Source of the DNA: Bryobacterales bacterium
GTDB taxonomy: Bacteria > Acidobacteriota > Terriglobia > Bryobacterales > Bryobacteraceae
NCBI GenBank assembly: GCA_003136675.1
Contig: PLFE01000051.1
Coordinates: 1 to 64,000 of the forward strand
Reading direction: 5' to 3'
DNA length: 64,000 nucleotides
The position numbers and the translations under genes are program-made. The notes under the pieces are model-generated. The model saw nothing but the letters and a program-made list of their open reading frames with translations, made no database searches and was not told the DNA's origin. Positions 7,965-27,764 of this stretch are shown piece after piece (position 1 is the first letter of the stretch; each line of letters opens with the position of its first letter).

Positions 7965-8474
7965 TTGCATCCAGCCAGTAACAACACTCTTCCTTGGTTC
8001 GCGGTGCGGGTGCGTTCGAACTTCGAGCAGAAAGTATGCACTAGCCTCTCCGGCATGGGTTACGAGACCTTTCTTCCCACTTACCGCCAACGGCGTGCCT
8101 GGACCGACCGCGTCAAGGAAACCGAGGTCCCTCTTTTCCCGGGTTACACGTTCTGCAGGATTGACCCAAAGTTCCGATTACCCTTACTCAAAGTCCCAGG
8201 CGTAGTCAGTTTGGTTGGAGCTGCGAAGCGCCCCGAAGCCATCCCAGAGGAAGAACTTACCGCGATTCGAACCATTATCGAAACCAGGTTGACAGTGCAG
8301 CCTTGGCCGTTCCTTCACGTGGGGCAAAAAATCAGAATCCACAAAGGCCCGCTATCCGGAGTGGAAGGTATCTTAGTCGGCTTCAAGGACGACTATCGCA
8401 TCGTGGTTTCAGTAACTCTTCTGAAACGTTCCGTCGCCGTGCAGTTGGAAGGCGCCTGGGTAAAGCCCGAATAA
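7965..8474 (+). CDS. NusG-like specialised antiterminator (RfaH/LoaP/UpxY type)
   Basis: The 169-residue protein has a NusG N-terminal domain ('PWFAVRVRSNFEQKVCTSLSG', 'ETFLPTYRQRR', 'VPLFPGYTFCRID') and a C-terminal KOW motif ('VGQKIRIHKGPLSGVEGILVG' near 120). Such paralogues typically increase elongation through long polysaccharide operons. The start is TTG at 7965, set by the AAGGAGG site eight bases upstream. It is convergent with the exopolysaccharide operon and ends five bases from the operon's last stop, so it cannot be its first gene, as many family members are. Its target operon is inferred from proximity. Confidence 0.9.
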   Translation: MHPASNNTLPWFAVRVRSNFEQKVCTSLSGMGYETFLPTYRQRRAWTDRVKETEVPLFPGYTFCRIDPKFRLPLLKVPGVVSLVGAAKRPEAIPEEELTAIRTIIETRLTVQPWPFLHVGQKIRIHKGPLSGVEGILVGFKDDYRIVVSVTLLKRSVAVQLEGAWVKPE

Positions 8475-10693: not shown

Positions 10694-11691
10694 GATTTCA
10701 TTCCTATGAGTCCGCGTGCGGAAACTGCCGAGCGGACTCGGTCTTCGCTTCCCCTTGACGCCACATAAAGCAGCCAGTTGCGATAAATATCCTGGGCCGT
10801 CGAGCGCCAGGTATTCAGCACGCCCCCAGCAACAGCGCTAGCGGGAAATTCAGTCATCGCCTGCTCGGAGCGATGAGTCATCGCATGGGCGCGAAACGCT
10901 CTCAACGCTGCACCGGCCGCCGCATCGAAGTATCCTTCGGGCTCACCGGGATAGGTGTCTCCGACGCCTTTCAAGAATCTTCGAACATCCCTCTGGTATT
11001 CCTTGAAAAGCGTGTCGTTTCGATATTCGGGATGACCTTGGAAGTGAACAAAAAGGCTCTTTCGTTTCTGTTTTACGAAGAGATCCGCACCGGCATCGGC
11101 CGATTCGGTGAGGAGCGTGTAACCGCATGATGTCAACGCCCGCGCGGGCACTTCGTTCCAGCGGGAATGCGGAACTTCCACCACTTCCCCAATACCGCGC
11201 ATCAGCCGGTGGTTGTTCGCTCTCTTAAACGAAAATACACCGAATTGCTTCCTGGAAAGCGGTTCTCGTGCAATGCCTTCGCTATGAAGGACGCTGGCGT
11301 GTGCGGCGAGACAGGACAGAATCGTCGACACCGTATTCTCCTGTGCCCAATTCAGCACATCCACCAGCGACGACCAATAAGGCTCCTGCCGCAAATCGGC
11401 GTGGCGCGGTTCAGTTCCGGTGACGATCACTGCATCGAACCTGCCGTTCCAAAGGGAGTCCAGCCCGCAGTAGACACTCGCGATCCGGTTTTGTGCCCGC
11501 TCGCACCGCGAAATGCCAGGCAGCGAGAAGAGGCTGATGCGCACTGGAATGTCTCCAGATGCCGCGCTGAGAAGATCGATAAACTGTGACTCGGTATCTA
11601 CAAGAACCGAATCTGGCATGTTGTTGATCAGAGCCACCTGGATGGCGGTTCGGACATCGCATCGCTGCGCGCCGTTGAGTGCGAGGGGCAT
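10690..11691 (-). CDS. MetA-like homoserine O-succinyltransferase homologue in exopolysaccharide operon
   Basis: The 333-residue protein aligns by eye with MetA. 'ALINNMPDSVLVDTESQFIDLL' matches the MetA N-terminal motif, 'STILSCLAAHASVLHSEGI' holds the predicted nucleophile Cys127, 'PHSRWNE' is near 174, and 'HFQGHPEY' gives His220 and Glu222. The MetA triad is therefore intact. Its position inside an exopolysaccharide operon, with no methionine genes nearby, suggests acylation of an amino sugar or of an amino-acid substituent rather than methionine synthesis. That is inference. It overlaps the next gene by four bases and follows the exosortase gene by 17 bases. Confidence 0.8.
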   Translation of the reverse strand: MPLALNGAQRCDVRTAIQVALINNMPDSVLVDTESQFIDLLSAASGDIPVRISLFSLPGISRCERAQNRIASVYCGLDSLWNGRFDAVIVTGTEPRHADLRQEPYWSSLVDVLNWAQENTVSTILSCLAAHASVLHSEGIAREPLSRKQFGVFSFKRANNHRLMRGIGEVVEVPHSRWNEVPARALTSCGYTLLTESADAGADLFVKQKRKSLFVHFQGHPEYRNDTLFKEYQRDVRRFLKGVGDTYPGEPEGYFDAAAGAALRAFRAHAMTHRSEQAMTEFPASAVAGGVLNTWRSTAQDIYRNWLLYVASRGSEDRVRSAVSARGLIGMKS

Positions 11692-11708: not shown

Positions 11709-12605
11709 TCAAGCGAGATTCGAGACTTCCATGGCTCTCGGGGTCTCTGTTCGTGCATGACCCTGACGGTGACCTTCTAGCCTTCTCAGCCCGAGCACCA
11801 CCGGACCCAGAATCCCCAGCGCCAGAAGAGAGACCGGCAAGCCGCCGTACTGGTGAAGTCTGCCATGCAGAAAGCCTTGATTCACATATACTCCCAGCCA
11901 GGATAAAGCTACAATCCGCACGCCGTTCTTGAAGATCGCAACCGGGATGGTAATCAGGCTGAACAGAATCCTGTTACCCGCGGCGTGAAGCAGCAGATAA
12001 CTGGCCACGAGACCAGAAATGAACAAAGAGAGACTTGATCGTATCCCGCTGCATTGCTCGGCAACTTCGATGTCAACGCCAGGGAGCGAGAACCTCATGC
12101 CGTGCCGGACAACCGGCACTCCCAGGATATGGAACAGCACGGCGGTCGTCTGCGCGGAACCCTCCTGAAGGCCGGCAACCGCTTCCGCAAGAAGGGATGC
12201 GGGAACTGGAATCGCCAGGAGCAGAAACAGGAGGGGGAACATGGCCTCTCGTGCGCATTGGGTTCCAAAACAAAGGACAAATCCACCCACCAGCATCAGA
12301 ACGATCGCGAACGTTTCAACGGCAACAGAAATCCCGGAACCCTCGAACAGATACAAGACAGCTCCAAGTAGAAGCGCAGGAACACCCCACCCGAGGCAAA
12401 CGCGCACATTGCAAAAAATTGTTTCCCTCTTCCAAACAATGATCCCGGCGCTGATGATCGGTATGAGAATGATGTAGGAATATCGTTCGTCGCTCAACGA
12501 AAGCTTTACAACAAGGCCTATCGTTCGCCGGCAGAGAAGGAATACTACACCTAGAATCGACAAGAAAAAAAGATTTCTAGCGCGTTTACTTGGACGATTT
12601 TCCAT
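11709..12605 (-). CDS. Exosortase (EpsH family)
   Basis: Starting at the ATG at 12605 gives a 298-residue protein with about eight membrane helices. It carries the exosortase catalytic residues: Cys185 in 'EVAEQCSGIRSS', Arg230 in 'FKNGVRIVALS', and a histidine in 'HGRLHQYGG' (His251 best matches the family). Exosortases are predicted inner-membrane transpeptidases that process PEP-CTERM-type tails. No C-terminal EpsI domain is fused. An upstream in-frame start at 12716 would add 37 non-family residues and is not preferred. The chosen start overlaps the kinase gene by 20 bases. No PEP-CTERM substrate is visible in the window. Confidence 0.9.
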   Translation of the reverse strand: MENRPSKRARNLFFLSILGVVFLLCRRTIGLVVKLSLSDERYSYIILIPIISAGIIVWKRETIFCNVRVCLGWGVPALLLGAVLYLFEGSGISVAVETFAIVLMLVGGFVLCFGTQCAREAMFPLLFLLLAIPVPASLLAEAVAGLQEGSAQTTAVLFHILGVPVVRHGMRFSLPGVDIEVAEQCSGIRSSLSLFISGLVASYLLLHAAGNRILFSLITIPVAIFKNGVRIVALSWLGVYVNQGFLHGRLHQYGGLPVSLLALGILGPVVLGLRRLEGHRQGHARTETPRAMEVSNLA

Positions 12606-13419
12606 AGTAAGCGTGATATTTGGAATAGAGCTTATCCAGCCCTTCCATGCCGTTGAGGACCACTCCCAGGACATGCTTAGGGCCGAGCTGCTTGAAGGCG
12701 TCCTCAACCGCTTCACGAGGCGTGGCCCCGGCGCGCACCACTACGAGGCTCGCATCGGCAAAACGGGACAAAGATATCGAGTCTGTAAGGGGGCCGAGCG
12801 GCGGCGCATCGAAGAGAATCCAATCGAAGTGCGGTGAAAGCTTCGACATGACATTGGCAATCGCACTCGGATGCAGCAGATCGGTGGGGTTTTTCTCCGT
12901 CCTGCCCGAGGGCAATAAATACCACCCCAGGGGGTCCAGACGCCTGACGCACGAAAGCGGGTTTAATCCTTCTTCAAGGCATTCCGCCAATCCGTCCCGT
13001 ACACCGAGCCGCAATTGCGATGTCAGCGTGGGGTGGTGAAGATCCGCCTCGATTAAGAGGACCGTGCGCTTTCCGTGCTCCGCCAGAGCGGTGGCCAGAT
13101 TGAGAGCAATTGTGGATTTTCCGTCCTGAGGCAGCGGGCTCGTAATCAGCAAACTTCTCAGTTTTCCCGCGTCCCACAGTTCCCGGAGACGCATGCGAAG
13201 ATACCGGAAACGATCGGCGCCTGGGCTGCGCGGCTCGTTATGGAAAACAATCCTGCTCTCCGGCAGGACCTCAACCTGCTCGACCTCTATATCTTTGAAG
13301 GCCGGCTCGAGAGCCGCCGGAGATCGCAATAAAGCTTCATTAGGTTCTCGCAATGGAAAAACACCAAACTTCTGACTCATAGCGCTGGCTGGCCTGAGCC
13401 TAGCCAACCCGGTAGACAT
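12586..13419 (-). CDS. BY-kinase (CpsD/CapB family) tyrosine autokinase
   Basis: The 277-residue cytoplasmic kinase has a Walker A motif 'SPLPQDGKST' (residues 94-103), a Walker A' 'LLIEADLHHP' (121-130), and a Walker B 'DWILFDAPPLG'. A tyrosine cluster 'YSKYHAYYGK' lies at the very C-terminus. This is the CpsD/ExoP-kinase layout, in which autophosphorylation cycles control polysaccharide polymerisation through the Wzz-type partner. The partner is encoded directly upstream and overlaps it by 20 bases. A second start at 13380 (MSQKFG) would remove 13 residues and the overlap; both are possible. Confidence 0.92.
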   Translation of the reverse strand: MSTGLARLRPASAMSQKFGVFPLREPNEALLRSPAALEPAFKDIEVEQVEVLPESRIVFHNEPRSPGADRFRYLRMRLRELWDAGKLRSLLITSPLPQDGKSTIALNLATALAEHGKRTVLLIEADLHHPTLTSQLRLGVRDGLAECLEEGLNPLSCVRRLDPLGWYLLPSGRTEKNPTDLLHPSAIANVMSKLSPHFDWILFDAPPLGPLTDSISLSRFADASLVVVRAGATPREAVEDAFKQLGPKHVLGVVLNGMEGLDKLYSKYHAYYGKSSK

Positions 13420-15022
13420 AAAACTCCGCTGCGAACACCGCGATCGCCAGCACGCATCCCAGCGCCCACTCGCACGTCCGGCGAACCACCAGCCTACGGT
13501 CTTCCCGCTTCGTACGAATCAGCGGAACACACAACACCAAGGGTAGCGCGAAACTCTTTGTTAGATCTTTCTCAGTATGGAAGGAACGGTCCGTAAGGTC
13601 CACCAGAAACGCGAGAGCCAGCCCCAAAGCCAATCCAGCACCTAGCCCTCCTAAACTGATTTTCAGACGCTTCGGGCTCGAAGGTAACGTAGGTAAACTC
13701 GGTGGGTCAACCAGACGGAACTGTTGCCCTCCCTGCTGTTTTTCCAAACTCGTAGCGAGTTGCGACTGTTGCTCTTTGTTCAACAGGTCGGCATAATTCG
13801 CTTTCAGCAAGTCGTAGTTGCGATTCACTTCAGCCAGCTCCTGCTCGCGAACGGGTGTCGAATTCAGCCGGTTCTGGTAGTCCGAAACACTCGCCTTCAA
13901 ACGCTTCTCATCGCTTGCAAGGTTCTCCATCTCCAGCCTGTTTGCCTCCAACTGGCTCTTCACCTGGGCGATCGTCGCGTCGTCCTCGGAGTTTGCGGAA
14001 GCGGGCGCAGCTCCCTTTTGACTCTCGGCGGCGCTCTCAGGCTTAGCGGCCTGCGAGGATTTCAGACGCGCAACCGTAGCCTCCTGTTTCCGGATCTCGC
14101 TCTCCACTTCCACTACGTCCGGATGCTCCGGCGTGTAACGCCCAAGCAGCAGATCCTTTTGGGACTCGAGGCGATCAAGCTCTTTTTGCGCATTGTCAAG
14201 AGGCGTGGCCGCGTGGGCGCCCGGAACGCCCGGCAAAGCAGAACCGCGCGCGGCTAGACCGCGATACCCGCTCAGCAGCGATTCCAGATAAACCTTCTGC
14301 TGTTGTGCACGGCTTAGCCCGGCCATGGTGTTCTGCAGCTGGGTTTGCAGCCCCGACAATATCGCCAGATTGCCCGCCTGCTGCTCCGGCAGTTCACCCA
14401 AATGTTGCATCTTGAATTCACGGAGACGCTGTTCCTGTTCATTGAGTTTGGTTCTCACTGTCTCCAGTTGAGCTTCCAGGAAGTTGGTGGTGTTAGCGGC
14501 CTGGTCTTCGCGGGTTTTGAGATTCTCTTGAATGAACAACGATGTCAATTTGCTTGTCACGGCCTGGGCCAGACGAGGGCTATCCGTAGTAAATGAGATC
14601 TTGAAGGCGTTGAAGTCCTTCCGTTCCGGCACTTCGTTGATGGGCTTGATATCGATGTTCTTACGCATCAAGTCGATGACTTCTTCAGGCGCCATGCGCT
14701 TCGATTCTTTTGTGAAAAGATGGAATTCGTCGATGATCCCCAGTAACCGCGTTCGCGACAGCACCTCCTGAGTCATTGCCTGAAGTTCTTCCGCAAGGCC
14801 GCTGGAGTTCGTCGGAACCACATATCTTTCGGGCACTTGCTGTTGCACCACCAACAGCGTTGCTTCGGAGTTGTAGCGATTTGGCAAACCCGAAAGTACC
14901 GCGATGGTCCCGAGAGCTACAACGCAGGCGGGAAAGACGATCCACCACCGCCTTCGCTTGATCAGACGGAAGATGCCTTCAATCGTTTCGTTTAGATTCG
15001 TTTGCGGTTCAGCTTCCGGCAA
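13400..15022 (-). CDS. Wzz/GumC-type polysaccharide chain-length determinant
   Basis: The 540-residue protein has an N-terminal Wzz domain with a membrane helix near residues 34-52 and 'NRYNSEATLLVVQQQVPERYV' after it. A long coiled-coil periplasmic region follows (about 170-420), then the typical 'DPPSLPTLPSSPKR' PCP motif. A second helix lies near 455-475, and a third hydrophobic segment is at the extreme C-terminus. The length and the missing fused kinase fit the exosortase-associated chain-length family (TIGR03007 type). It acts with the adjacent BY-kinase to set polymer length. Confidence 0.9.
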   Translation of the reverse strand: MPEAEPQTNLNETIEGIFRLIKRRRWWIVFPACVVALGTIAVLSGLPNRYNSEATLLVVQQQVPERYVVPTNSSGLAEELQAMTQEVLSRTRLLGIIDEFHLFTKESKRMAPEEVIDLMRKNIDIKPINEVPERKDFNAFKISFTTDSPRLAQAVTSKLTSLFIQENLKTREDQAANTTNFLEAQLETVRTKLNEQEQRLREFKMQHLGELPEQQAGNLAILSGLQTQLQNTMAGLSRAQQQKVYLESLLSGYRGLAARGSALPGVPGAHAATPLDNAQKELDRLESQKDLLLGRYTPEHPDVVEVESEIRKQEATVARLKSSQAAKPESAAESQKGAAPASANSEDDATIAQVKSQLEANRLEMENLASDEKRLKASVSDYQNRLNSTPVREQELAEVNRNYDLLKANYADLLNKEQQSQLATSLEKQQGGQQFRLVDPPSLPTLPSSPKRLKISLGGLGAGLALGLALAFLVDLTDRSFHTEKDLTKSFALPLVLCVPLIRTKREDRRLVVRRTCEWALGCVLAIAVFAAEFYVYRVG

Positions 15023-17432: not shown

Positions 17433-18677
17433 TTATCGGGCAGCCGCCATCGCCAATGGAACCATGCGGTTATAGAGAGGATCGCGGTCCGCGACGAAAG
17501 CCAAAACCTGCCCGATCACTTCTTCCTGTCGCGCCGCCGCCAGTTGCGGATACATCGGCAGCGATACGATTTCCTGAGCCAGCTTCTCCGACACCGGAAA
17601 CTGACCATTCCGGAAACCCATGTGCGCGTAAGCCTTCTGAAGATGCAGCGGAATCGGATAATGAATTCCCGTCCCGATGTTTTCTAAAGCCATGTGGTTC
17701 ATAAATTCCGAACGGTCCCCCACGCGCACCACGTAAAGGTGGTGAACCGGCCTGGCCCACGCCGGCTCGTCGGGAAGCCCAACCGCGTGCGAGACGAACT
17801 CCAACCCCTCCCGGTACCGTGAGGCAATCGCGCGGCGTTGTTCCGTCCATAACGGAAGGCGCCTCAACTTCACCTGCAGGATGCCGGCTTGAATTGCATC
17901 CAGGCGGCTGTTGTATCCCTCGATCTCGTGATGGTATTTCTTGCTTTGCCCGTGATCGCGTAACATGCGAACCTTGCGCGCCAGCTCTTCCTGATTTGTC
18001 GTGATCGCACCGGCTTCGCCGCAAGCCCCCAGATTCTTCCCCGGATAGAAACTAAAGGCGGACGCCATTCCCATTGAGCCGGCTTTCTTCCAGCATCCTT
18101 CCCTCTGCGAATAGTACTCCGCGCCATGCGCCTGGCAGGCATCCTCAATCACCACCAGCCCGTAGCGCTCAGCCAGTTCCAGGATTACATCCATGTCGGC
18201 CATCTGCCCATAAAGATGGACCGGAACAATTGCCGAGACGGGCATACCCGTCCGCCGCTTGATCAGCTTACGCCGCCGAGGGTCGAAGAAGCAGTCTCGT
18301 TCCAGATAGTCGCGCAGCTTCTCGGTGTCCATATTCGAAGTGCGCTCATCCACATCCACGAAATCCGGCCGCGCGCCGGCCTGGGAAATCGCTTCGCACG
18401 TCGCAATAAAGGTATTCGGGACGGTCACCACGATGGCCCCCGGCTCGACCCCGGCGGCAATGAGCGAAAGAGTCAGTGCGTCCGTGCCGCTGCTCACGCC
18501 GACGCAATATCGCGCCTCGCAGTAAGTGGCAAAGTCGCGCTCGAAATCCTCCACCATTGGGCCGCCAATAAAGCCGGCCGAGCCGAGGGCGTCCCGGAAT
18601 ACGCCACAAAGTTCTTCCTGCAGATCCTCATGAGGCGTAATCAAATCGAGAAATGGGATTCCTGCCGCAGTACTCAT
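17433..18677 (-). CDS. DegT/DnrJ/EryC1/StrS aminotransferase (WbpE-like)
   Basis: The 414-residue PLP enzyme shows 'GVSSGTDALTLSLIAAGVEPG' near 60, 'VIEDACQAHGAEY' near 177 with the cofactor aspartate, and 'SFYPGKNLGACGEAGAI' with the Schiff-base Lys214. It transfers an amino group to a keto-sugar nucleotide. With the adjacent acetyltransferase and Gfo/Idh oxidoreductase it matches the WbpB-WbpE-WbpD set, which makes UDP-2,3-diacetamido-2,3-dideoxy-glucuronate. A dTDP-3-amino-sugar route is the main alternative. Its start overlaps the acetyltransferase stop by four bases. Confidence 0.92.
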   Translation of the reverse strand: MSTAAGIPFLDLITPHEDLQEELCGVFRDALGSAGFIGGPMVEDFERDFATYCEARYCVGVSSGTDALTLSLIAAGVEPGAIVVTVPNTFIATCEAISQAGARPDFVDVDERTSNMDTEKLRDYLERDCFFDPRRRKLIKRRTGMPVSAIVPVHLYGQMADMDVILELAERYGLVVIEDACQAHGAEYYSQREGCWKKAGSMGMASAFSFYPGKNLGACGEAGAITTNQEELARKVRMLRDHGQSKKYHHEIEGYNSRLDAIQAGILQVKLRRLPLWTEQRRAIASRYREGLEFVSHAVGLPDEPAWARPVHHLYVVRVGDRSEFMNHMALENIGTGIHYPIPLHLQKAYAHMGFRNGQFPVSEKLAQEIVSLPMYPQLAAARQEEVIGQVLAFVADRDPLYNRMVPLAMAAAR

Positions 18678-19168
18678 TTTTTGTCTTCCGACTCCTGGCT
18701 GATCTTCAATACCCGCGCCGGGTTCCCCGCTACAGTCGCGCCCGGAGGGACACTCTTTGTCACCACGCTGCCGGCGCCTACAATGGCGCCTTCACCCACC
18801 ACGACGTTGGCGAGTATGGTGGCGCCTGACCCGATGGAAGCGCCTTCCTTCACCAGCGTTTCTTCCACCTTCCAGTCTTCTTCCGTTTGCAACTGCCCGG
18901 CGCTGTTCGTTGCTCTCGGGTACTTATCGTTGATGAACGTGACGCCGTGACCTACGAAGACGTTGTCCTCGATGGTCACGCCCTCACAAATGAATGTGTG
19001 GCTCGAAATCTTGCAGTGACGCCCGATCTTCGCGTTCTTCTGAATCTCAACAAACGCGCCGATCTTGGTGTAATCCCCCACTTCGCAGCCATAAAGGTTG
19101 ATGAACTTCGACAGCTTCACCTCAACCCCCAGCCGCACATCGGGAGCAATTGCCTGGTACAAGCTCAT
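18674..19168 (-). CDS. Left-handed beta-helix sugar N-acetyltransferase (WbpD/WlbB-like)
   Basis: The 164-residue protein is mostly hexapeptide repeats ('IGAFVEIQKNAKIGRHCKIS', 'IEDNVFVGHGVTFIND', 'IGSGATILANVVVGEGAIVGAGSVV'). It ends with the 'VPPGATVAGNPARVL' signature of trimeric acyl-CoA-dependent acetyltransferases. It probably acetylates the 3-amino group installed by the neighbouring aminotransferase. It overlaps both flanking genes by four bases, within a tight three-gene sugar-modification block. Confidence 0.92.
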   Translation of the reverse strand: MSLYQAIAPDVRLGVEVKLSKFINLYGCEVGDYTKIGAFVEIQKNAKIGRHCKISSHTFICEGVTIEDNVFVGHGVTFINDKYPRATNSAGQLQTEEDWKVEETLVKEGASIGSGATILANVVVGEGAIVGAGSVVTKSVPPGATVAGNPARVLKISQESEDKK

Positions 19169-20166
19169 ACCTCGACGGGCGCCCCGCGAGCTTTCAAAGA
19201 TCGATCGGCCGCTTCGAGTATCCTCACCACGCGGAGCCCGGAGACACCGTCGTTGAACGGCCTCTCATTCTTTTCCACGCACTCGACGAAGTACTTGGTT
19301 TCCTCGGCTAGCGCTTCCGGCTGGTCAAGCTTGGGCGCCCACATATCGCCGGACCGGTAGCTGACCAGCAAATCGTGAATGCCCTTCCCGTTGTTTACCT
19401 GAACACCTTTGTCGTAGATTTTTATCTTCTCGTCCGCTTCCAGGTCGTTCCAAACCACCATCTTTTTTTCCGCGCCAATAAGGGTCGTTCTCACCTTCAC
19501 CGGCGATAGCCAGTTCACGTTGATGTGGGCTATCATGCCGCCACCGAAATAGACCGTGATGAATGCCAGGTTCTCCAGCCCGTTCAGGTGCGTTTGGCCT
19601 GTGGCGGCCACGGCTTCTGGCTTCCGGTCGATCAGATGGTCCACAATCGATAAGTCGTGCGGAGCCAGGTCCCAAATCACGTTGACATCGTGCTGAAAGA
19701 GCCCGAGATTTACGCGTGTCGAATCGTAATAGTAGAGGTTGCCCAGCGCTCCAGAACAGATCAATTGCCGGATCTTCCGCACAGCTCCGGTGAACAGAAA
19801 CGTGTGATCCACCATGATCTGCAGGTTCTTGCTCTCCGCAAGATCGATCAACTCCTCAGCTTGGTCTGCCGTCGCCGTGAACGGCTTTTCCACGAAGACG
19901 TGCTTGCCGTTTTCGAGCGCGGCCTTGGCTAAGCCAAAGTGGGTGCGCACCGGAGTGATCACGGCTACGGCGTCGATAAACGGGGAAGACAGAACATCGG
20001 AAAGCTCCGTCGTCACGCCCACATCGGGGAACGCTTTCTTCGCGCGGCACAACGCCTCAGGGCTCTTGTCGCACACCAGAGTGACTTCGCAACCCTCCGC
20101 GGCATGGAAGTTCCTGACAATCCGCGGACCCCAATACCCGTAGCCGATGACTCCAATTTTGATCAT
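19165..20166 (-). CDS. Gfo/Idh/MocA oxidoreductase (WbpB/WlbA-like)
   Basis: The 333-residue NAD(P)-dependent oxidoreductase has an N-terminal Rossmann fold 'IGVIGYGYWGPRIVRNFH' and the family 'VFVEKPFTATADQAEELID' motif near 91-108. A C-terminal 'WDLAPHDLSIVDHLI' carries the catalytic histidine. In a WbpB role it would oxidise C3 of a UDP-N-acetyl-glucuronate-type donor before transamination. No UDP-sugar 6-dehydrogenase (WbpA/WbpO) is present here and would have to be encoded elsewhere. Confidence 0.92.
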   Translation of the reverse strand: MIKIGVIGYGYWGPRIVRNFHAAEGCEVTLVCDKSPEALCRAKKAFPDVGVTTELSDVLSSPFIDAVAVITPVRTHFGLAKAALENGKHVFVEKPFTATADQAEELIDLAESKNLQIMVDHTFLFTGAVRKIRQLICSGALGNLYYYDSTRVNLGLFQHDVNVIWDLAPHDLSIVDHLIDRKPEAVAATGQTHLNGLENLAFITVYFGGGMIAHINVNWLSPVKVRTTLIGAEKKMVVWNDLEADEKIKIYDKGVQVNNGKGIHDLLVSYRSGDMWAPKLDQPEALAEETKYFVECVEKNERPFNDGVSGLRVVRILEAADRSLKARGAPVEV

Positions 20167-20217: not shown

Positions 20218-21357
20218 CTAGTACGCGCCGTCTCCGCTGAGAATGGCCGCGGGCGTTCGGAAGAGAATTTTGATGTCCAGCCACAGGGAGCGGGTCCGAG
20301 CATATTTAAGATCCAGGCGGACCATGTCGTCAAAGCCGACTCTGCTTCGCCCCTCTACCTGCCATAGCCCCGTCAGGCCGGGTTTGACCCCAAACAGCCG
20401 GCTTCGGTGCCATACCTTGTAGCACTCGTACTCGTAAGGCACGGGCGGGCGCGGGCCAACCAGCGACATCTCGCCTCGCAGAACGTTCACGAATTGGGGA
20501 AGTTCGTCAAGGCTCGTTTTCCGCAGGAATTTTCCAAGCGGAGTAATCCTGTGGTCTTTGGTCAGCTTGAATACGGTACCCTGCCCCAATTCCGCCGCGG
20601 GCGATCCCGCTATCAATCGACGAACGTATTCTTTGTGGATCGCAGGATCGTTGTCCTCGTACATCGAACGGAACTTGAGAAAAGTAAACTGCCGCCCGTC
20701 CTCGCCAACTCTTTGCTGACGGAACACAACGGGGCCTTTCGATGTGAGCTTGATCGATAGCGCAATCGCGGCCAGGACCGGGCAGAAAACGACCATAGCC
20801 AGTAAGCTGCCCGCCACATCGATAACTCTTTTCGATACCTTGGCGGCCATATTTGAATCGCGCATCAGATCCGGGTACAGGGACTCGTCAACCGGTCCGC
20901 TCTCCTCGCTCCCCTCGAAACCATCAGGGAAAAGATGAATGGACATGCTGATCCGGTCTGTTTCATCCGGCGTCAAGCCGGCACACAAGGCGCTGGTAAC
21001 TTTGGTTCGGAGCGCCATGAACACACTCTTTACTTCCGTGTTGCCGATCTCGGTGAATACGATACCAATGGCTGAGCGCTCTTCATACCAGCCTATGAAA
21101 TCTGTATCGCGAATTGCCCCGTGAAGCGCTGTCAGCATGCGCCCCTTCAAACCGTCGCTACTGTTGAGCAGTTTGCTTTGAAGAAGCATCAGGACAAAGC
21201 GGCGCCCAGACCTCTCGGCTCTCTTTCTCTCCAGACCGAGCATCCTGACAAAATTCTCCTGGGTCAGAAACTCGATCGTCGACCCGGGGTTCCCATTACT
21301 AACATGCAAGCGGAATGCGGAGAGTTCCGCAGTAGTCTTAGGGAAGACGTTCGACAT
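20218..21357 (-). CDS. Undecaprenyl-phosphate sugar-1-phosphate transferase with degenerate GGDEF-like N-terminal domain
   Basis: This 379-residue protein is the first gene of the operon. The C-terminal 200 residues are a bacterial sugar transferase: a membrane helix ('AGSLLAMVVFCPVLAAIALS') is followed by 'VVFRQQRVGEDGRQFTFLKFRSM', 'TSLDELPQFVNVLRGEMSLVGPRPP' and 'KPGLTGLWQVEGRS'. It starts lipid-linked repeat-unit synthesis at the inner membrane. Unlike WcaJ/WbaP it lacks four N-terminal helices. Residues about 30-145 instead resemble a GGDEF-type fold, with 'GWYEERSAIGIVFTE' where the GG(D/E)EF turn would be, so that domain is probably non-catalytic. Confidence 0.9.
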   Translation of the reverse strand: MSNVFPKTTAELSAFRLHVSNGNPGSTIEFLTQENFVRMLGLERKRAERSGRRFVLMLLQSKLLNSSDGLKGRMLTALHGAIRDTDFIGWYEERSAIGIVFTEIGNTEVKSVFMALRTKVTSALCAGLTPDETDRISMSIHLFPDGFEGSEESGPVDESLYPDLMRDSNMAAKVSKRVIDVAGSLLAMVVFCPVLAAIALSIKLTSKGPVVFRQQRVGEDGRQFTFLKFRSMYEDNDPAIHKEYVRRLIAGSPAAELGQGTVFKLTKDHRITPLGKFLRKTSLDELPQFVNVLRGEMSLVGPRPPVPYEYECYKVWHRSRLFGVKPGLTGLWQVEGRSRVGFDDMVRLDLKYARTRSLWLDIKILFRTPAAILSGDGAY

Positions 21358-21514
21358 ACCTCAGTTGCCTCGGGTCTAGCAAGATTCGGCGAGTTAACCA
21401 ACAGTTCGTTCGGTAATACACGCGGAGTCGGACTCTTTTGACGCGCTACCGCCCTTTGGGTCCCATCGGTCTCTGCGTGACGGACGTCAGCGACGAGTGG
21501 CTCAGCCCGTTATT

Positions 21515-21529
21515 GCAACTGTGACTCCA
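21515..21529 (-). promoter_or_regulatory. Candidate sigma-54 promoter of the polysaccharide operon
   Basis: Read on the minus strand the sequence is TGGAGTCACAGTTGCA. It has the obligatory GG and GC dinucleotides ten bases apart and a full TTGC at the -12 element. The -24 element keeps TGG but not the CAC. It would start transcription near 21503, leaving about 145 bases before the sugar transferase ATG. An enhancer-type activator with the GAFTGA loop is encoded at 26118-27764, which makes sigma-54 control plausible. Confidence 0.5.
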
Positions 21530-21589
21530 TTTTTCCAGCCCGTTTATCCCCCTTTATTTTCAATTAGTTAGAGAGTTTTTTGTGGCGGA

Positions 21590-21615
21590 CCGATATCCGA
21601 AAGGTGGGATATTGG
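21590..21615. promoter_or_regulatory. Imperfect inverted repeat, possible activator site
   Basis: The arms CCGATATCC (21590-21598) and GGATATTGG (21607-21615) pair at eight of nine positions with an eight-base spacer. The site lies about 60-85 bases upstream of the candidate -24 element, where sigma-54 activators commonly bind. It is a candidate operator only; it may instead serve the plus-strand dockerin gene. Confidence 0.35.
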
Positions 21616-21776
21616 AATCGGAAATCGGACTGTTTCCCAATTTGTGAGAACTCTGGCGGTATCACCCAGAGAAAACACGCTTCCGCCCGCAACACAGCTT
21701 TGTATTTCGGTTTTATCCTAATTCCCATAGAGAAAGAGCGGGGCCGTAAGGGCATCTTTTGTCGAGGTAACGAGGT

Positions 21777-22874
21777 TTGTCAAAACGTTTTCAGGGATCG
21801 CTGCGCGGGTTGGCGCTTCCCGCGGGCTTGTTTGTCATCTTTCTAGTGGCCGTGAACCTCAGCGCGCAGACGAATCCATGTGACCTCAATGGCGATGGAG
21901 TCGTAAATATCGCGGACGTTCTGGACGCAGTTCAAATGTTCCGTGGTGAGTCGCAGTGCACTGCCGATATCTTGAGCGCCGGGGTATGCTCCTGGCAGGT
22001 GGTCCGGCGCGTTGAATCGGCCACCCTGACGGGCGTCTGTGTCACAGGCAATCCGAGTCCGCCCACGCTTTCCGTCTCGTCCTTGTCACCCACTCTGATT
22101 GAGAGCGGACAATCGAGCGTGGGCACCGTTACTCTCAGCGGCGGTTCAGCCGGTGCTGGAGGCGTGCTGGTCGCGCTGACGTCTTCGAGCCCTGCGGCGG
22201 GGGTTCCGCCCAGCGTTCTGATTCCCGAGGGTTCCGCTTCCGCAACCTTCCCGATTACCGGCAACGAAGTCGCCGGATCGAGCTCGGTGATCGTGACGGC
22301 GTCCTATTCGGGAGTTTGGTCCACAGCCGGTTTGACGGTTAATCCGGCGCAGCTTAGTCTCTCCAGCCTCTCCGTCAGTCCCGGTTCGTTCGCGAGCGGC
22401 CAGACCGCCACTGGCATCATCGAACTCAGCGGTCCGGCTCCGTCAGGGGGAGCCTCGGTTTCGCTCGCCGGCACGAACAACGCCATCAGCTTTCCACCCG
22501 CCGTCACCGTAACTCAGGGTTCCGATTCAGCAAATTTTACCGTCACGGCCAACATGGTCACCGCCGCGACCGAGGTCCAGCTGACTGCGTCTTACTCGGG
22601 TGGTAACTCTTCTGTTACGCTAACCATCGATCCCGCGTCGGTGACTCTTTCCTGGGTCGCCAGCACGTCGCCAGACATAGCTGGTTACAACGTCTTTCGT
22701 GGAACGGTGTCCGGGGGACCCTATACGCAGTTGAACACCGCCTTGGTCCCGGGCACGAGCTATGTCGACTCAACCGTCCTACCGGGCTCGACATATTTTT
22801 ACGTGACTACCGCGGTCAACACGACCGATATCCAAAGCGCTTACTCAAACCAGGCCGAGGCGGCTGTTCCGTAG
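21777..22874 (+). CDS. Secreted dockerin-like / Ig-like / fibronectin III protein
   Basis: The 365-residue protein starts at TTG 21777, nine bases after GAGG. A signal peptide (to about residue 31) is followed by a dockerin-like module (34-91). Its first EF-hand loop is canonical (Asp36, Asn38, Asp40, Asn44, Asp47), the second loop is degenerate, and there are four cysteines (35, 61, 71, 88). Two Ig-like repeats of about 85 residues come next, then a fibronectin type III domain (about 285-365) ending at the C-terminus. There is no PEP-CTERM tail or membrane anchor. It is predicted to be extracellular and to bind calcium; the partner may be the cohesin-like protein encoded at 24309. Confidence 0.82.
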   Translation: MSKRFQGSLRGLALPAGLFVIFLVAVNLSAQTNPCDLNGDGVVNIADVLDAVQMFRGESQCTADILSAGVCSWQVVRRVESATLTGVCVTGNPSPPTLSVSSLSPTLIESGQSSVGTVTLSGGSAGAGGVLVALTSSSPAAGVPPSVLIPEGSASATFPITGNEVAGSSSVIVTASYSGVWSTAGLTVNPAQLSLSSLSVSPGSFASGQTATGIIELSGPAPSGGASVSLAGTNNAISFPPAVTVTQGSDSANFTVTANMVTAATEVQLTASYSGGNSSVTLTIDPASVTLSWVASTSPDIAGYNVFRGTVSGGPYTQLNTALVPGTSYVDSTVLPGSTYFYVTTAVNTTDIQSAYSNQAEAAVP

Positions 22875-22973
22875 GATTGGAACTATTTTCCCAGTCGGCG
22901 ACACCCGTCCCGGTGAGAAATTGTGCTGACTGCGCCCACAGATTCGATTACGATCGAAAAAGTAATTGTCAGC

Positions 22974-24167
22974 ATGGCTTTCTCGCATGTCCCCCGCGTC
23001 GCATCCCGCCTGGGTTTGCTCACGCAACGCGCCTTCGTTAGTCAGGCTCTTCTTGGATTCGGATTAGTCCTGCTGTGCGGCCAGGCGGAAGGTCAAATCA
23101 GCTTGGTGAACATGACACCATGCGGGCCCGGTTCGTTTCCGGGCACCGTTTGTACGATCCCGGCGACTGGGGGCAATCACTTTCTCGTCATTGGCTTTCA
23201 AGCGGGACCGAGCGTCAATACATCGACGACCATCAGTTCCATCACAGACAACGTAGGAAACGTTTACACCCAGGACAGCGGCGCGCGCTCCGTTGATACG
23301 GCCGGTGGTTCCATGATCGATGTCTGGTATGTGAACAACAGCATCGCCGGCGCCACGTCGGTCACGATTACTCCCAGTGCGGGAGTTCAGAACGCCGGCG
23401 CGGTGATTTGGGAGTACGCGGGGATCAACCCTGTTACCCCCCTCGGCCAGGTCGCTGTCCTGAATAGCCAGAGCTCATCCGCCAGTCCAATTGGGCCTCC
23501 TGTAACGACGACGACGCCCGGTGAACTCGTTCTCGGCCTCGCGGCCTCCGCGGGGAGTCTCACTGGCATGGATTCCGGCAATGAATTCAACTTAGACTCT
23601 TCCTTTGGAGGAATGGGATGGTCGAATCTCTTTACGTCCACCACGGGGACTTACACGCCCCAATGGGCCCAAAGCCCTGCCGGAACGTATGCGGCCAGCA
23701 CGGTTTCGTTTAACGCGGAAAACCCTTTGAGTGGACCTGATCCTTGCGATCTGAACGGGGACGGAATCGTGAATCTGCTCGACGAGCAGTTGGCTGTGGG
23801 GATGTCGCTCGGACAAACTCAATGCACCGCAAACATCGACGGAGCCAGCGTGTGCAATGTGGTGATTGTTCAGCGTGTTGTGAATGCCGCCACGGGCGGA
23901 GTCTGCGTCACCGGGAACTCCCATTCGGTTTCTCTGAGTTGGATGGCGAGCACCTCCCCGAACATAGCCGGTTACAACGTTTATCGCGGAGTCACCACCG
24001 GTGGACCGTACACGCAACTCAATTCCTCGCTCGTTCCGACGGTGACCTATACGGACTCCAACGTTTCACCGGGGCAAAGTTACTATTACGTGACAACGGC
24101 GGTGAACACCGGCAACCTCCAAAGCGTTTACTCAAACGAGGCCCAGGCCACCGTACCAACGCCCTAA
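22974..24167 (+). CDS. Secreted protein with dockerin-like and fibronectin III domains
   Basis: The ATG at 22974 gives 397 residues (a GTG at 22923 would add 17). After a signal peptide (to about residue 40) comes a beta-rich domain of about 200 residues starting 'ISLVNMTPCGPGSFPGTVC', of unknown family. A dockerin-like module follows (about 256-315) with one intact calcium loop, 'DLNGDGIVNLLD', a degenerate second loop, and four cysteines in the same spacing as the previous protein. A fibronectin III domain (about 318-395) closes the protein and is nearly a copy of the one in the upstream gene. It is extracellular, probably co-expressed with its neighbours. Confidence 0.82.
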   Translation: MAFSHVPRVASRLGLLTQRAFVSQALLGFGLVLLCGQAEGQISLVNMTPCGPGSFPGTVCTIPATGGNHFLVIGFQAGPSVNTSTTISSITDNVGNVYTQDSGARSVDTAGGSMIDVWYVNNSIAGATSVTITPSAGVQNAGAVIWEYAGINPVTPLGQVAVLNSQSSSASPIGPPVTTTTPGELVLGLAASAGSLTGMDSGNEFNLDSSFGGMGWSNLFTSTTGTYTPQWAQSPAGTYAASTVSFNAENPLSGPDPCDLNGDGIVNLLDEQLAVGMSLGQTQCTANIDGASVCNVVIVQRVVNAATGGVCVTGNSHSVSLSWMASTSPNIAGYNVYRGVTTGGPYTQLNSSLVPTVTYTDSNVSPGQSYYYVTTAVNTGNLQSVYSNEAQATVPTP

Positions 24168-24308
24168 CTCCATTCGAATTAGTACCAGCCTGTAAGGGTG
24201 CTCTTTCATGGATCGTCTAAACCGTCAGGCTAAGCAGCGGACCACTGAAGAATCAGGATTCCACCCGATATCTCGATTGGCCAGTGTTGACGAAAACTGT
24301 TAGCAGGC

Positions 24309-25661
24309 ATGTCGATTTACGGCAAAGTTCCGCACGTCTTCACCGTGGCCCTGTTGGGCTCGCTGGGATGCTTCGCACAAACAGTGACGTTCGGCGTGTC
24401 GTCCGGCTCGGCAAGTCCAGGATCGACAGTCACCCTCGATCTCAGCATGGATTCTGCCTCGGGAACTTCACCCGCCTCGGCGCAATGGACTCTGAACTAC
24501 CCGGCGACGGATTTTTCTTCCGCGACGGTTACGCCGGGGTCGGTGGCCGCCGGCGCAGGCAAATCTGTTTCATGCACGAGCACGCCGGGCTCGTCGACTT
24601 GCGTTCTTTGGGGAGATAACAGCATTGCGATGGCAAGCGGTGTTGTGGCAACCGTTTCGCTTGTTGTCGCCCCGTCGACGGAAGACACATCCTCACAGGT
24701 TGAACTCTCGGTGCCCATGGCTGCTGACCCTTCCGGCTTCCCGCTGACTGCCGCGGCGTCCGGCGCGACCGTAACGATTATTCAGCCCCCGGCGCTCAGT
24801 GCATTTTCCTGTTTGCCAGTCACCATAACTTATCCGGCCCCCTCGACATGCACTCTCCAGTTGTCGGCGGACGCGCCCAGCGGAGGAGCCTCTATCGCCT
24901 TATCGACGTCGCTCCCGGATGTAACCGTGCCGCCGACGGTTCCGATTCCGCAGGGGTCCAGTTCCGCAACGTTCAATGCAGTGCCCCTCGCTGTCACCGG
25001 GCCGACAGCGGTTAACTTGACGGCGTCGTATCTCGGCTCCAGCGAAGGCTTCGGGATAAATATCAATCCGGGAACCGCGGCTTTGAGCAACGTCTCCGTC
25101 AACCCGGCAGTGCAGACCGGCGGAGCGACCTCATCCGGAACGGTCACGCTATCGGCTCCAGCCGGGGCCGGCGGATTGACAGTTACGCTCTCCAGCTCAA
25201 ATGGTTCGGTCGCCTCGGTTCCCACTTCGGTCACAGTTGCCCAGGGATCCACTGCCGCGGCATTCACGGTAACAACATTCACGGTTTCGGCAGTGAGTTT
25301 CGCGACGATTACAGCTTCTTACTCCGGGGGGAAGGTAACTGAAAGCCTGACAGTCAATCCGCGGCCTCATCCTTTGAGTAGCATTCAGGTGAGTCCCGGC
25401 ACAATTCAAAGTGGACAAACCGCCTCCGGAACGGTAACCCTCTCGGCGGCAGCCGGAGCGGGCGGCGCAGTCGTTTACTTATTCAGCTCAAACATGGCAG
25501 CAGTTACAGTGCCAGCGTCCGTGACCGTTGCTCAAGGCGCCACGTCGGCCGCATTCACCGCCACTGCGGGAACGGTTAGCACCAACAACACCGTAGCCCT
25601 CACGGCTTTCCACGCTGGAATCACTGCGACCACTTACTTGACGGTTACGCACACTAAGTAG
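24309..25661 (+). CDS. Secreted cohesin-like domain protein with three Ig-like repeats
   Basis: The 450-residue protein has a signal peptide ending near 'CFAQ' (24). A cohesin-like beta-sandwich follows (about 25-158): 'VTFGVSSGSASPGSTVTLDLSM' opens like cohesin strand 1, 'SAQWTLNYPATDFSSATVTPGSV' matches the cohesin mid-region, and 'MASGVVATVSLVV' the late strand. A cysteine pair (89, 98) lies in the loop. Three Ig-like repeats of about 90 residues ('SGTVTLSA.AGAGG') follow. There is no sortase signal, dockerin or anchor. Cohesins bind dockerins in calcium-dependent complexes; two dockerin-like proteins are encoded just upstream. Domain assignment is by eye. Confidence 0.78.
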   Translation: MSIYGKVPHVFTVALLGSLGCFAQTVTFGVSSGSASPGSTVTLDLSMDSASGTSPASAQWTLNYPATDFSSATVTPGSVAAGAGKSVSCTSTPGSSTCVLWGDNSIAMASGVVATVSLVVAPSTEDTSSQVELSVPMAADPSGFPLTAAASGATVTIIQPPALSAFSCLPVTITYPAPSTCTLQLSADAPSGGASIALSTSLPDVTVPPTVPIPQGSSSATFNAVPLAVTGPTAVNLTASYLGSSEGFGININPGTAALSNVSVNPAVQTGGATSSGTVTLSAPAGAGGLTVTLSSSNGSVASVPTSVTVAQGSTAAAFTVTTFTVSAVSFATITASYSGGKVTESLTVNPRPHPLSSIQVSPGTIQSGQTASGTVTLSAAAGAGGAVVYLFSSNMAAVTVPASVTVAQGATSAAFTATAGTVSTNNTVALTAFHAGITATTYLTVTHTK

Positions 25662-26117
25662 GTTCTTCTCAGGGCGGGGGCGTGTACGGCCTACACCTTG
25701 CACTTCTTTACAAATATTAATTGAGAAAAAGGTTGCGATCTGTAACGGTTAGCACACATAATCGCACTATGCGTTTTTAGGGGAACTGTTGGATCCGTAT
25801 TACGATTTGTACCGTACAAGGTACCAAAGCGGATTAAATTTTCTTTCGGCCCTCCCATTGGACGTGACTTTTGTATTACCTTATTGGCGTAGCCCCTGTC
25901 GGCTGAAAAACTGTGGTTCCGCAATAGCGACAAGAGATTGGAAGTGCTGGTTGTTCTGGACATGCGAAATTTCGAACGAGCGGGCGTTGGAAACAGGCCT
26001 GCACTCTGTGAAAGCATACAGACGTCTTACTCCATCTCGTGAAATCCTGGCCCTTTCGGTACGGGACTACGCTTTATCTGTTAAACAAAACTTACCTGGA
26101 ATGAGAGCGACCCCCCT
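25662..26117. promoter_or_regulatory. Upstream region of the sigma-54 activator gene
   Basis: This 456-base AT-richer gap holds no convincing gene. It contains a perfect dyad TTGTAC-C-GTACAA at 25807-25819, directly followed by GGTACC. A sigma-54-like element TTGGAAACAGGCCTGCA lies at 25987-26003 (GG and GC ten bases apart), about 115 bases before the activator's ATG. The element would allow self-activation of the regulator; both sites are visual matches only. Confidence 0.4.
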
Positions 26118-27764
26118 ATGCAAACCATCCTCGTAGCCGGCGACGAAGCGGAAGTTCGTAGGTATTTCGGGCAGGCTCTTCCTTCGCCCGGTTTTGAGTT
26201 TAAGTTTCCCGCGGTCGGCGAGACGACCGGGACTCGAATCGCGATGGAAGTCGACGGCGCCGAAGCGCTATTGCTTGACCTCGCAAAACCTTTCCAGGAC
26301 GGGTTTCAAACTCTGCGCGAGTTCCGCAGCATTCGGCCCGACTTTCCGGTTATTGCCTTCTCCTCGACGGACTCACCGCGCGACATCGTCAGAGCCTTAA
26401 GGCATGGGGCCAACGACTTCTTGACGAAACCGGAAACATCCCGCGATTTCGTGGAGGCTATCGCGCGCGTTCTGCCCGGCGCATCCAAGGCGGAGGGATC
26501 CAAAGGAGATGAAGACGAGCGATTCGTGGCTTCACACTTCCTTGCCCCTCAGGGGTCCTGGTCCGGCAAGATCGAACTTCTTCTGGACCGTGCTTCCGAC
26601 TCCATCGTTCCTCTCTTGCTGCGCGGCGAGACGGGGGTAGGCAAGGAGGTCGTCGCACGCAGGTTCCATGAGCGCTCGCCTCGCTCCCGCGCACCGTTCC
26701 TGAAAATCAACTGCGCGGCGCTTCCGTCGGACCTGATTGAGAGCGAGCTGTTTGGCTACGAGCGGGGCGCGTTTACCGGCGCATTTAAGAACACTCCAGG
26801 AAAATTTGAACTCGCCCAGGGAGGCACCATCCTGCTGGACGAGATCGGCGACATGGATGTAAGGCTTCAGGCCAAGCTACTGCATGTCTTGCAAGACAAC
26901 GAATTCATGCGGATCGGCGCGCAGCAGGTTTCGCGGGTAGATGTGCGGATCATGGCCGCGACGCATCGCGATCTGGAGACAGCCATTAGTCAGGGCTCAT
27001 TTCGGGAAGATCTCTTCTATCGCCTGAACATCATCGACGTGCATATCCCGCCGCTCCGGGAACGATGCGACGAGATTCTCCCGCTGGCTGAGTTGTTTCT
27101 CAGCAGGCATGCGATGCCGGAATCTCCCGCTCCGGAAATTACAATCGTTCTGCAAAAAGCTCTTCTGGACCATGATTGGCCGGGCAACATTCGTGAACTG
27201 GAGAACGTGATGCGGAAGTTTCTGATTCTCCGCAACCCGGATTGGATTGCCGGCGAACTTACTTCTCAATCGAGGAGAAGGAAGCCTAGGTTGAGTGGAC
27301 GAGCAGTGCCTGCTGTCGGCTCCCGGCTCCAGGAGCTCTCGGAATCGAGCATCATCCGCAATGCCTTAAATGCCGCGCAATGGGATCGGGAGAAAGCGGC
27401 AAAACTGCTCTCCATGGATGCCGATGCGCTGGGGAACCGCATGAGGGAACTGGCCATTCAATACGGTCCCGTTCCGGTAACGGATGCCGCCGAGAAATCC
27501 TCTCACTCGGCATCGTCCATACTTTCCGAAGTGGATGAGGCTCGTCGGGCGGCGGAATCGGAAGCGATCCTCGCAGCGTTGAACTCCAGCCACTGGAACC
27601 GGAAGCAGGCGGCGGCCACTCTGGGGATCGACTACAAGGCTCTGCTTTACAAGATGAAAAAACTGGCGATCGGGAACAAGCCGCCCGAGCCAGCCCGTCC
27701 TTCGCAGGCCCCTGCGGCAGAGGCTGCCGCTCTGCCGGAAAAAAGAAGATTCACCGCAAGCTAA
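26118..27764 (+). CDS. PrsR-like sigma-54-dependent response regulator with two C-terminal Fis-type HTH units
   Basis: The 548-residue protein has an N-terminal receiver domain (to about 118) with the phospho-acceptor aspartate in 'ALLLDLAKP' and 'LTKP' near its end. An AAA+ domain follows (about 140-375) with Walker A 'GETGVGKE', the sigma-54-contacting 'GAFTGA' loop, and '[13 protein letters not shown]' (Walker B). The C-terminus has two HTH_8-type units, '[23 protein letters not shown]' and '[23 protein letters not shown]', where most family members have one. The order resembles PrsR, the regulator of exosortase loci. No PrsK-type histidine kinase is in the window. It overlaps the convergent propeller gene by 14 bases. 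Confidence 0.92.

Follow-up and report, generated by a model that had tools for sequence, protein, structure and literature searches.

Cohesins and dockerins outside cellulosomes have reportedly been treated by Peer et al. 2009. In cellulosomes, the two-fold symmetry of the dockerin underlies a dual binding mode, as set out in PMC5429695, and the role of the two modules elsewhere is an open question (PMC5244752; PMC9012536). We analyzed a 64,000-nucleotide stretch of DNA from a Bryobacterales bacterium (contig PLFE01000051.1 of GenBank assembly GCA_003136675.1), hereafter the window, which corresponds to contig C154 in a genome of 6.1 Mb (227 contigs, 93% complete), and in it three consecutive genes encoding the secreted proteins P1, P2, and P3. 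P3 carries a cohesin, and P1 and P2 each carry a dockerin-derived module.

With the cellulosomal type I cohesin-dockerin pairs of C. cellulolyticum (2vn5) and C. acetobutylicum (6kgf), the trio shares the cohesin fold and sequence family, the dockerin ancestry, and secretion, but it has a single cohesin per protein, no enzymes, and no carbohydrate-binding module (CBM). Its dockerin-derived modules also differ from the cellulosomal dockerin in having four Cys and one calcium loop, so that the symmetry behind dual binding is absent. Non-cellulosomal cohesins and dockerins, such as the Archaeoglobus cohesin 2xdh and the sets of the anaerobic methanotrophic archaea (ANME), likewise lie outside cellulose degradation; however, the ANME sets include multi-cohesin scaffoldins (PMC9012536), whereas the pair described here is family-wide, genetically linked, and located beside exopolysaccharide (EPS) and exosortase genes. 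In the PEP-CTERM/EpsH (XrtA) system (PMC1569441), a single region similarly holds an NtrC-type sigma-54 regulator together with EPS genes, an exosortase, and the TPR protein PrsT, but P1 to P3 have no PEP-CTERM tail, and P1 has no sigma-54 promoter upstream. Finally, several neighboring cohesin proteins in relatives terminate in the Solibacter C-terminal domain (TIGR03437), which P3 lacks in the NCBIfam search. In the open-access literature, one paper alone combines "dockerin" and "exosortase," a study of methanotrophic archaea that names both and handles them separately (PMC5244752), and no prior description of this cohesin-dockerin pair was found there, subscription papers being outside the scope.

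Our best explanation, which we hold to be somewhat probable, is that P1 to P3 form the protein component, exported and non-catalytic, of an EPS locus, in which the P3 cohesin would bind extracellularly to the dockerin of either P1 or P2. It starts from the domains, the sequence-level secretion signals, the conserved co-location, and the EPS/exosortase neighborhood, all of which are observed; the binding itself and a role in the matrix are predictions from sequence.

The P3 cohesin and the modules of P1 and P2

The ORF listing gives three plus-strand open reading frames (ORFs) in succession, at 21777-22874, 22923-24167, and 24309-25661, each with a signal-peptide-like N-terminus. The proteins and their key modules are as follows.

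21777-22874, plus strand: P1, 365 amino acids (aa); signal peptide, Cys-dockerin, two immunoglobulin (Ig)-like repeats, and C-terminal Fn3 (from the ORF, the A1 module match, and the shared Ig-like repeats and Fn3)
21879-22052, plus strand: P1 dockerin-derived module, with an intact loop 1, a degenerate loop 2, and Cys at 1/27/37/54
22974-24167, plus strand: P2, 397 aa; signal peptide, N-terminal domain without assignment, Cys-dockerin, and C-terminal Fn3 (the ORF opens at 22923; likely start ATG at 22974)
23745-23918, plus strand: P2 dockerin-derived module, with an intact loop 1, a degenerate loop 2, and Cys at 1/27/37/54
24309-25661, plus strand: P3, 450 aa; signal peptide, cohesin, and three Ig-like repeats (from the ORF, PF00963, and repeat comparison)
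24390-24776, plus strand: P3 cohesin domain, type I-like jelly roll (PF00963; VIA-align to 6kgf_C)

The N-terminus of P3 is a true, type I-like cohesin, because it passes the Pfam cut-off (PF00963 on residues 30-134, 30.1 bits against 24.1, E 6e-7; 33.8 bits in the genome-wide search), the A2 profile of 37 relatives detects type I cohesins of solved structure at the sequence level (1g1k, E 8e-9), and its predicted fold aligns to 6kgf_C. The AlphaFold2 model of the domain has a predicted local distance difference test score of 91-98, matches solved structures with a Foldseek E of 4.9e-11, and superposes on 6kgf_C with a VIA-align Z of 17.6 and a root-mean-square deviation of 2.0 over 136 residues. 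The fold comparison covers the cohesin only, as cohesins filled the list of solved structures retrieved. Cohesin-family domains also occur in another setting in the family: a secretin-like protein (L039, 6838-8835 onward; also G000:C210:30825-31175) has an apparent one near its C-terminus, and similar ORFs of about 800-900 aa yield a cohesin match in most genera and look unrelated to dockerins.

The modules of P1 and P2 match the A1 module profile with E values of 4.3e-23 and 1.2e-26, respectively. Loop 1 is intact in both (DLNGDGVVNIAD, DLNGDGIVNLLD), and loop 2 has no acidic ligands at key positions, position 12 being Val in P1 and Ile in P2. In the A1 alignment, they can be aligned from end to end with modules from relatives in which the same four Cys accompany two intact loops. 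Since several of these two-loop relatives exceed the PF00404 (Dockerin_1) cut-off (e.g., G025:C14, G043:C217, and G003:C380), the module of P1 and P2 is judged to be dockerin-derived, strictly outside Dockerin_1 by the Pfam definition. In the phylum, it is nearly restricted to this family, occurring in 5 of 297 sampled genomes, 2 of them outside the family.

Both P1 and P2 end in an Fn3 domain (53% identical across a 119-residue alignment), which in P2 matches the solved Fn3-like 3mpc (E 1.1e-8) and is the sole part of P2 to match a solved structure, and the middle of P1 consists of the same Ig-like repeat as that of P3 (43-46% identical). For the P2 N-terminal domain of about 220 aa (22974-23740, plus strand), searches of Pfam, NCBIfam, PHROGs, and solved structures gave no match. 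No catalytic family above cut-off was found in P1 to P3 with Pfam and NCBIfam, and their C-termini (AEAAVP, ATVPTP, and TVTHTK) carry no PEP-CTERM sorting tail, nor is there an NCBIfam match to one.

These results confirm the observations of a preliminary description made from the sequence alone, whose interpretation is supported in part; it had proposed three consecutive secreted proteins, an N-terminal cohesin and Ig-like repeats in the third, and neither a PEP-CTERM tail nor a catalytic domain in any of them. Its dockerin-like module with one canonical loop, one degenerate loop, and four Cys also holds, except that the Cys, said to be equally spaced, are spaced 26/10/17, which is identical between the two modules and uneven within each. 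Its domain account of P1 and P2 was incomplete, having overlooked the C-terminal Fn3 of both and the P3-type Ig-like repeats of P1.

Co-occurrence and co-location in relatives

The pairing was examined in 237 genomes of the family. Dockerins of this kind are present in 56 genomes, cohesins of this kind in 70, and both in 52; the cohesin is thus found in 52/56 dockerin genomes versus 18/181 others (not corrected for phylogeny). The two, whose co-location the preliminary description had noted for the window, are also close together in relatives far more often than by chance. Among 81 dockerins, a count that excludes those sharing an ORF with a cohesin, 16 are within 5 kb of a cohesin versus 0.32 expected by random placement (10 genera), and 23 are within 10 kb versus 0.65 expected (14 genera). 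Because the cohesin profile behind the 16/81 count contained four members found near dockerins, the count was repeated with unbiased matches, taken only from single P2 and P3 queries plus Pfam and with the window genome excluded, and 5 of 26 dockerins were within 5 kb versus 0.10 expected (Poisson-binomial p 5e-8). Other Pfam dockerins show the same tendency (5/33 within 5 kb versus 0.07 expected). The random-placement expectation ignores gene clustering and shared ancestry, and the effect is spread across different genera. In G062, just one stop codon stands between the gene for a 205-aa cohesin protein and that for a 190-aa dockerin-Fn3 protein, and in the metagenome-assembled genome Bryobacterales bacterium palsa_187, which represents the taxonomic family of the window genome in a named collection, the order of sigma-54 regulator, cohesin-TIGR03437, dockerin-Fn3, and EPS operon recurs (L023).

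Separately, three relatives have a cohesin and a dockerin module about four residues apart in one frame of 2418-4154 aa (G112:C63:12551-13117, G104:C148:6683-7249, and G106:C64:23167-23733), which from its sequence reads as a natural fused arrangement.

P1 reaches only 12.2 bits with Dockerin_1 against a cut-off of 22.9 and P2 gives no match, so the Pfam check put forward in the preliminary description came out negative for the dockerin. Several results weigh against our best explanation. A number of loci with Fn3-type dockerins have no cohesin inside 10 kb, and the relatives G025, G103, G019, and G216 are dockerin-only. No sigma-54 promoter was found near P1 to P3 in the window, the best site upstream of P1 being no better than those in shuffled sequences. 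The predicted interface is also negative. The P2 dockerin-Fn3 and the P3 cohesin share a reading frame, so positions 23745-24779 were folded as one chain in AlphaFold2, Gly being substituted for stops, and the same was done for the pair from G062; rows of the alignments were selected solely for correct placement. In the window chain, the individual domains folded well and the linkers were disordered. There was no confident interface, with a predicted TM-score (pTM) of 0.48 for the window and 0.51 for G062, from shallow unpaired alignments and read without predicted aligned error or coordinates. By our own estimate from typical error values, which is not computed, two independent domains would give a pTM of about 0.43 and a docked pair about 0.65. 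The absence of a confident interface, which the preliminary description had named as grounds for refutation, was thus encountered in a weak single-chain test of the P2 module with the P3 cohesin only.

The lack of a confident interface in either chain agrees with the possibility that the proteins are neighbors without contact, that is, jointly regulated EPS exoproteins whose cohesin and dockerin-like domains are standalone structural or sugar-binding modules. Acidobacterial cohesins do occur without a dockerin, for example in secretin-like proteins (about 840 aa) that most genera have, and a cohesin-plus-Ig protein is a known adhesion design without a dockerin, according to PMC6030884 on TMEM132. 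However, pairing within 5 kb is about 50 times random placement, two-loop dockerins that are not near EPS genes included, and the co-occurrence across genomes is near-complete. We therefore regard the absence of contact as conceivable, though not probable. It is improbable that the P3 cohesin and the dockerins serve partners elsewhere, with the trio forming part of a wider set. The window genome does have a second P3-like cohesin, 57% identical, on contig C192, with no dockerin in the surrounding 18 kb, and some genomes of the family have several enzyme-bearing dockerin proteins (GH44, CBM96, and beta-helix). On the other hand, the window genome has only two A1-type dockerins, P1 and P2, and two cohesins of this type, and a PF00404 search of the entire genome gave nothing above cut-off. 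This is a closed set: there is no other A1-type dockerin, so one of P1 and P2 has to be part of any cohesin-dockerin pair. Overall, the results point to a non-cellulosomal cohesin-dockerin system tied to EPS, with strong genetic support and a predicted binding.

The Fn3-bearing dockerin subfamily and its predicted binding

The modules of the P1/P2 type are best assigned to a dockerin-derived subfamily of their own. Among 49 distinct modules with a readable loop 2, the Asp at position 12 of that loop is lost in 23/23 of those followed by Fn3 versus 6/26 of those without Fn3 (Fisher p 1.6e-8, an optimistic value because the rows are related). In some Fn3-type modules, loop 1 is eroded too (L048, L050, L061, and L199), while the four Cys are retained in nearly all. 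The two-loop members belong to larger proteins, which also contain GH44, CBM96, beta-helix, or CAP domains. The calcium dependence proposed in the preliminary description is doubtful as a general rule, since every Fn3-type member has lost loop 2 and some have lost loop 1 too.

These features also bear on whether the trio is a small, calcium-dependent, cellulosome-like scaffold recruiting enzymes. Loop 1 of P1 and P2 is an intact calcium loop, and the two-loop dockerins of relatives sit on hydrolases, but each protein has a single cohesin, P1 to P3 contain no enzyme and no CBM, and the loss of loop 2, in places with the ligands of loop 1, runs through the Fn3 type; we consider such a scaffold very unlikely. 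A cellulosome proper was rejected: P3 has one cohesin and no CBM in Pfam and NCBIfam, P1 and P2 have no enzyme domain, and the genome has no other Pfam dockerin.

If the P3 cohesin does bind, the mechanism may be as follows. P3 would present one cohesin, and P1 and P2 one Cys-stapled, one-calcium dockerin each. The two would compete, the cohesin binding one dockerin at a time outside the cell. Cys2-Cys3 may staple the degenerate loop 2, and Cys1-Cys4 may clasp both termini, in which case disulfides would now do some of the structural work formerly done by calcium. Because the symmetry of the dockerin is lost, a single binding orientation is predicted; the one-sided loss of a calcium loop would fix it, whereas symmetric cellulosomal dockerins bind in a dual mode. 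The Ig-like repeats and Fn3 might serve as spacers or sugar contacts, and short protein links within or onto the polysaccharide layer would result. We propose only tentatively that the cohesin-dockerin couple represents a new class, where disulfides replace calcium and an asymmetric, Fn3-fused dockerin with one-orientation binding ties adhesin-like secreted proteins into EPS. A pair that stays together across many genera, in a fixed neighborhood and sometimes with no more than two partners in a genome, makes a compact test case. Should binding occur without the second calcium site, the pair could serve protein engineering as a disulfide-locked affinity pair of single orientation and could also give access to the matrix of soil Acidobacteria, which are abundant but poorly cultured.

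As a separate observation, two-loop four-Cys dockerins occur on GH44, CBM96, beta-helix, and other proteins at L251-L269 (e.g., L256 9842-11668 and L252 9852-11426), and G093 encodes three cohesins and six dockerin proteins of this kind, possibly a small hydrolase-carrying system in Acidobacteria.

The exopolysaccharide neighborhood

P1 to P3 are divergent from a minus-strand EPS operon, and an NtrC-type sigma-54 regulator comes after P3. The EPS side includes Wzz, tyrosine autokinase, exosortase, PrsT, UpxY antiterminator, and sugar-nucleotide genes.

26118-27764, plus strand: NtrC-type sigma-54 response regulator, PrsR-like architecture (Response_reg; Sigma54_activat, PF00158 E 3.5e-63; HTH_8)
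20218-21357, minus strand: polyprenyl glycosylphosphotransferase (EPS priming sugar transferase), divergent from P1 (TIGR03025 E 6.2e-84, 282.8 bits, just below the 295.55 cut-off)
17433-20166, minus strand: nucleotide-sugar genes, namely a pyridoxal phosphate (PLP) aminotransferase, an acyltransferase-like gene (left-handed beta-helix, read by eye from the sequence), and a Gfo/Idh oxidoreductase (the first and last with family matches under equivalog cut-offs)
13400-15022, minus strand: Wzz/GNVR chain-length protein (PF02706 and PF13807 above cut-off)
12586-13419, minus strand: polysaccharide biosynthesis tyrosine autokinase (TIGR01007, 111.4 bits against 108.05)
11709-12716, minus strand: exosortase (TIGR02602, 131.1 bits against 105.55)
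8480-10693, minus strand: XrtA/PEP-CTERM-system TPR protein PrsT (TIGR02917, 326 bits against 312.2)
7965-8474, plus strand: UpxY-family capsule transcription antiterminator (NF033644, 112 bits against 100)

Both the exosortase/polysaccharide operon and the sigma-54 activator of the preliminary description are therefore genuine, and in relatives the Fn3-type dockerin is associated with such genes: Wzz, tyrosine kinase, exosortase, or PrsT is within about 10 kb of 13/20 Fn3-type dockerin loci versus 3/20 controls, for which loci with the remaining types of this module family were taken (Fisher p 0.003). Two of the three marker-bearing controls are themselves loop-2-lost or Fn3-bearing (L263 and L264). 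The suggested part of the sigma-54 activator in the matrix assembly fared differently. It is unsupported because an activator like that of the window is near just 3/20 Fn3-type dockerin loci and promoters are lacking in the window and most relatives, good upstream matches being found only in L108 and L244. We also rejected P1 to P3 as XrtA/PEP-CTERM substrates, given that they have no sorting tail and no upstream sigma-54 promoter, although the locus itself has exosortase and PrsT above cut-off.

An Rfam search of 21340-26200 gave chance-level matches only, and a search of a plasmid collection gave no DNA match. In several relatives, three further secreted genes, of a type not seen in the window, lie beside the dockerin-Fn3 gene (L098 12124-16043, L101 6189-13223, and L102 15496-19381); they encode a repeat protein of about 730 aa or longer, a protein of about 330-390 aa, and an Ig-like protein of about 230-260 aa with a C-terminal hydrophobic stretch. 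In the window, a homoserine O-succinyltransferase MetA gene (10690-11691, minus strand; NF003776 above cut-off) lies between the exosortase and PrsT genes.

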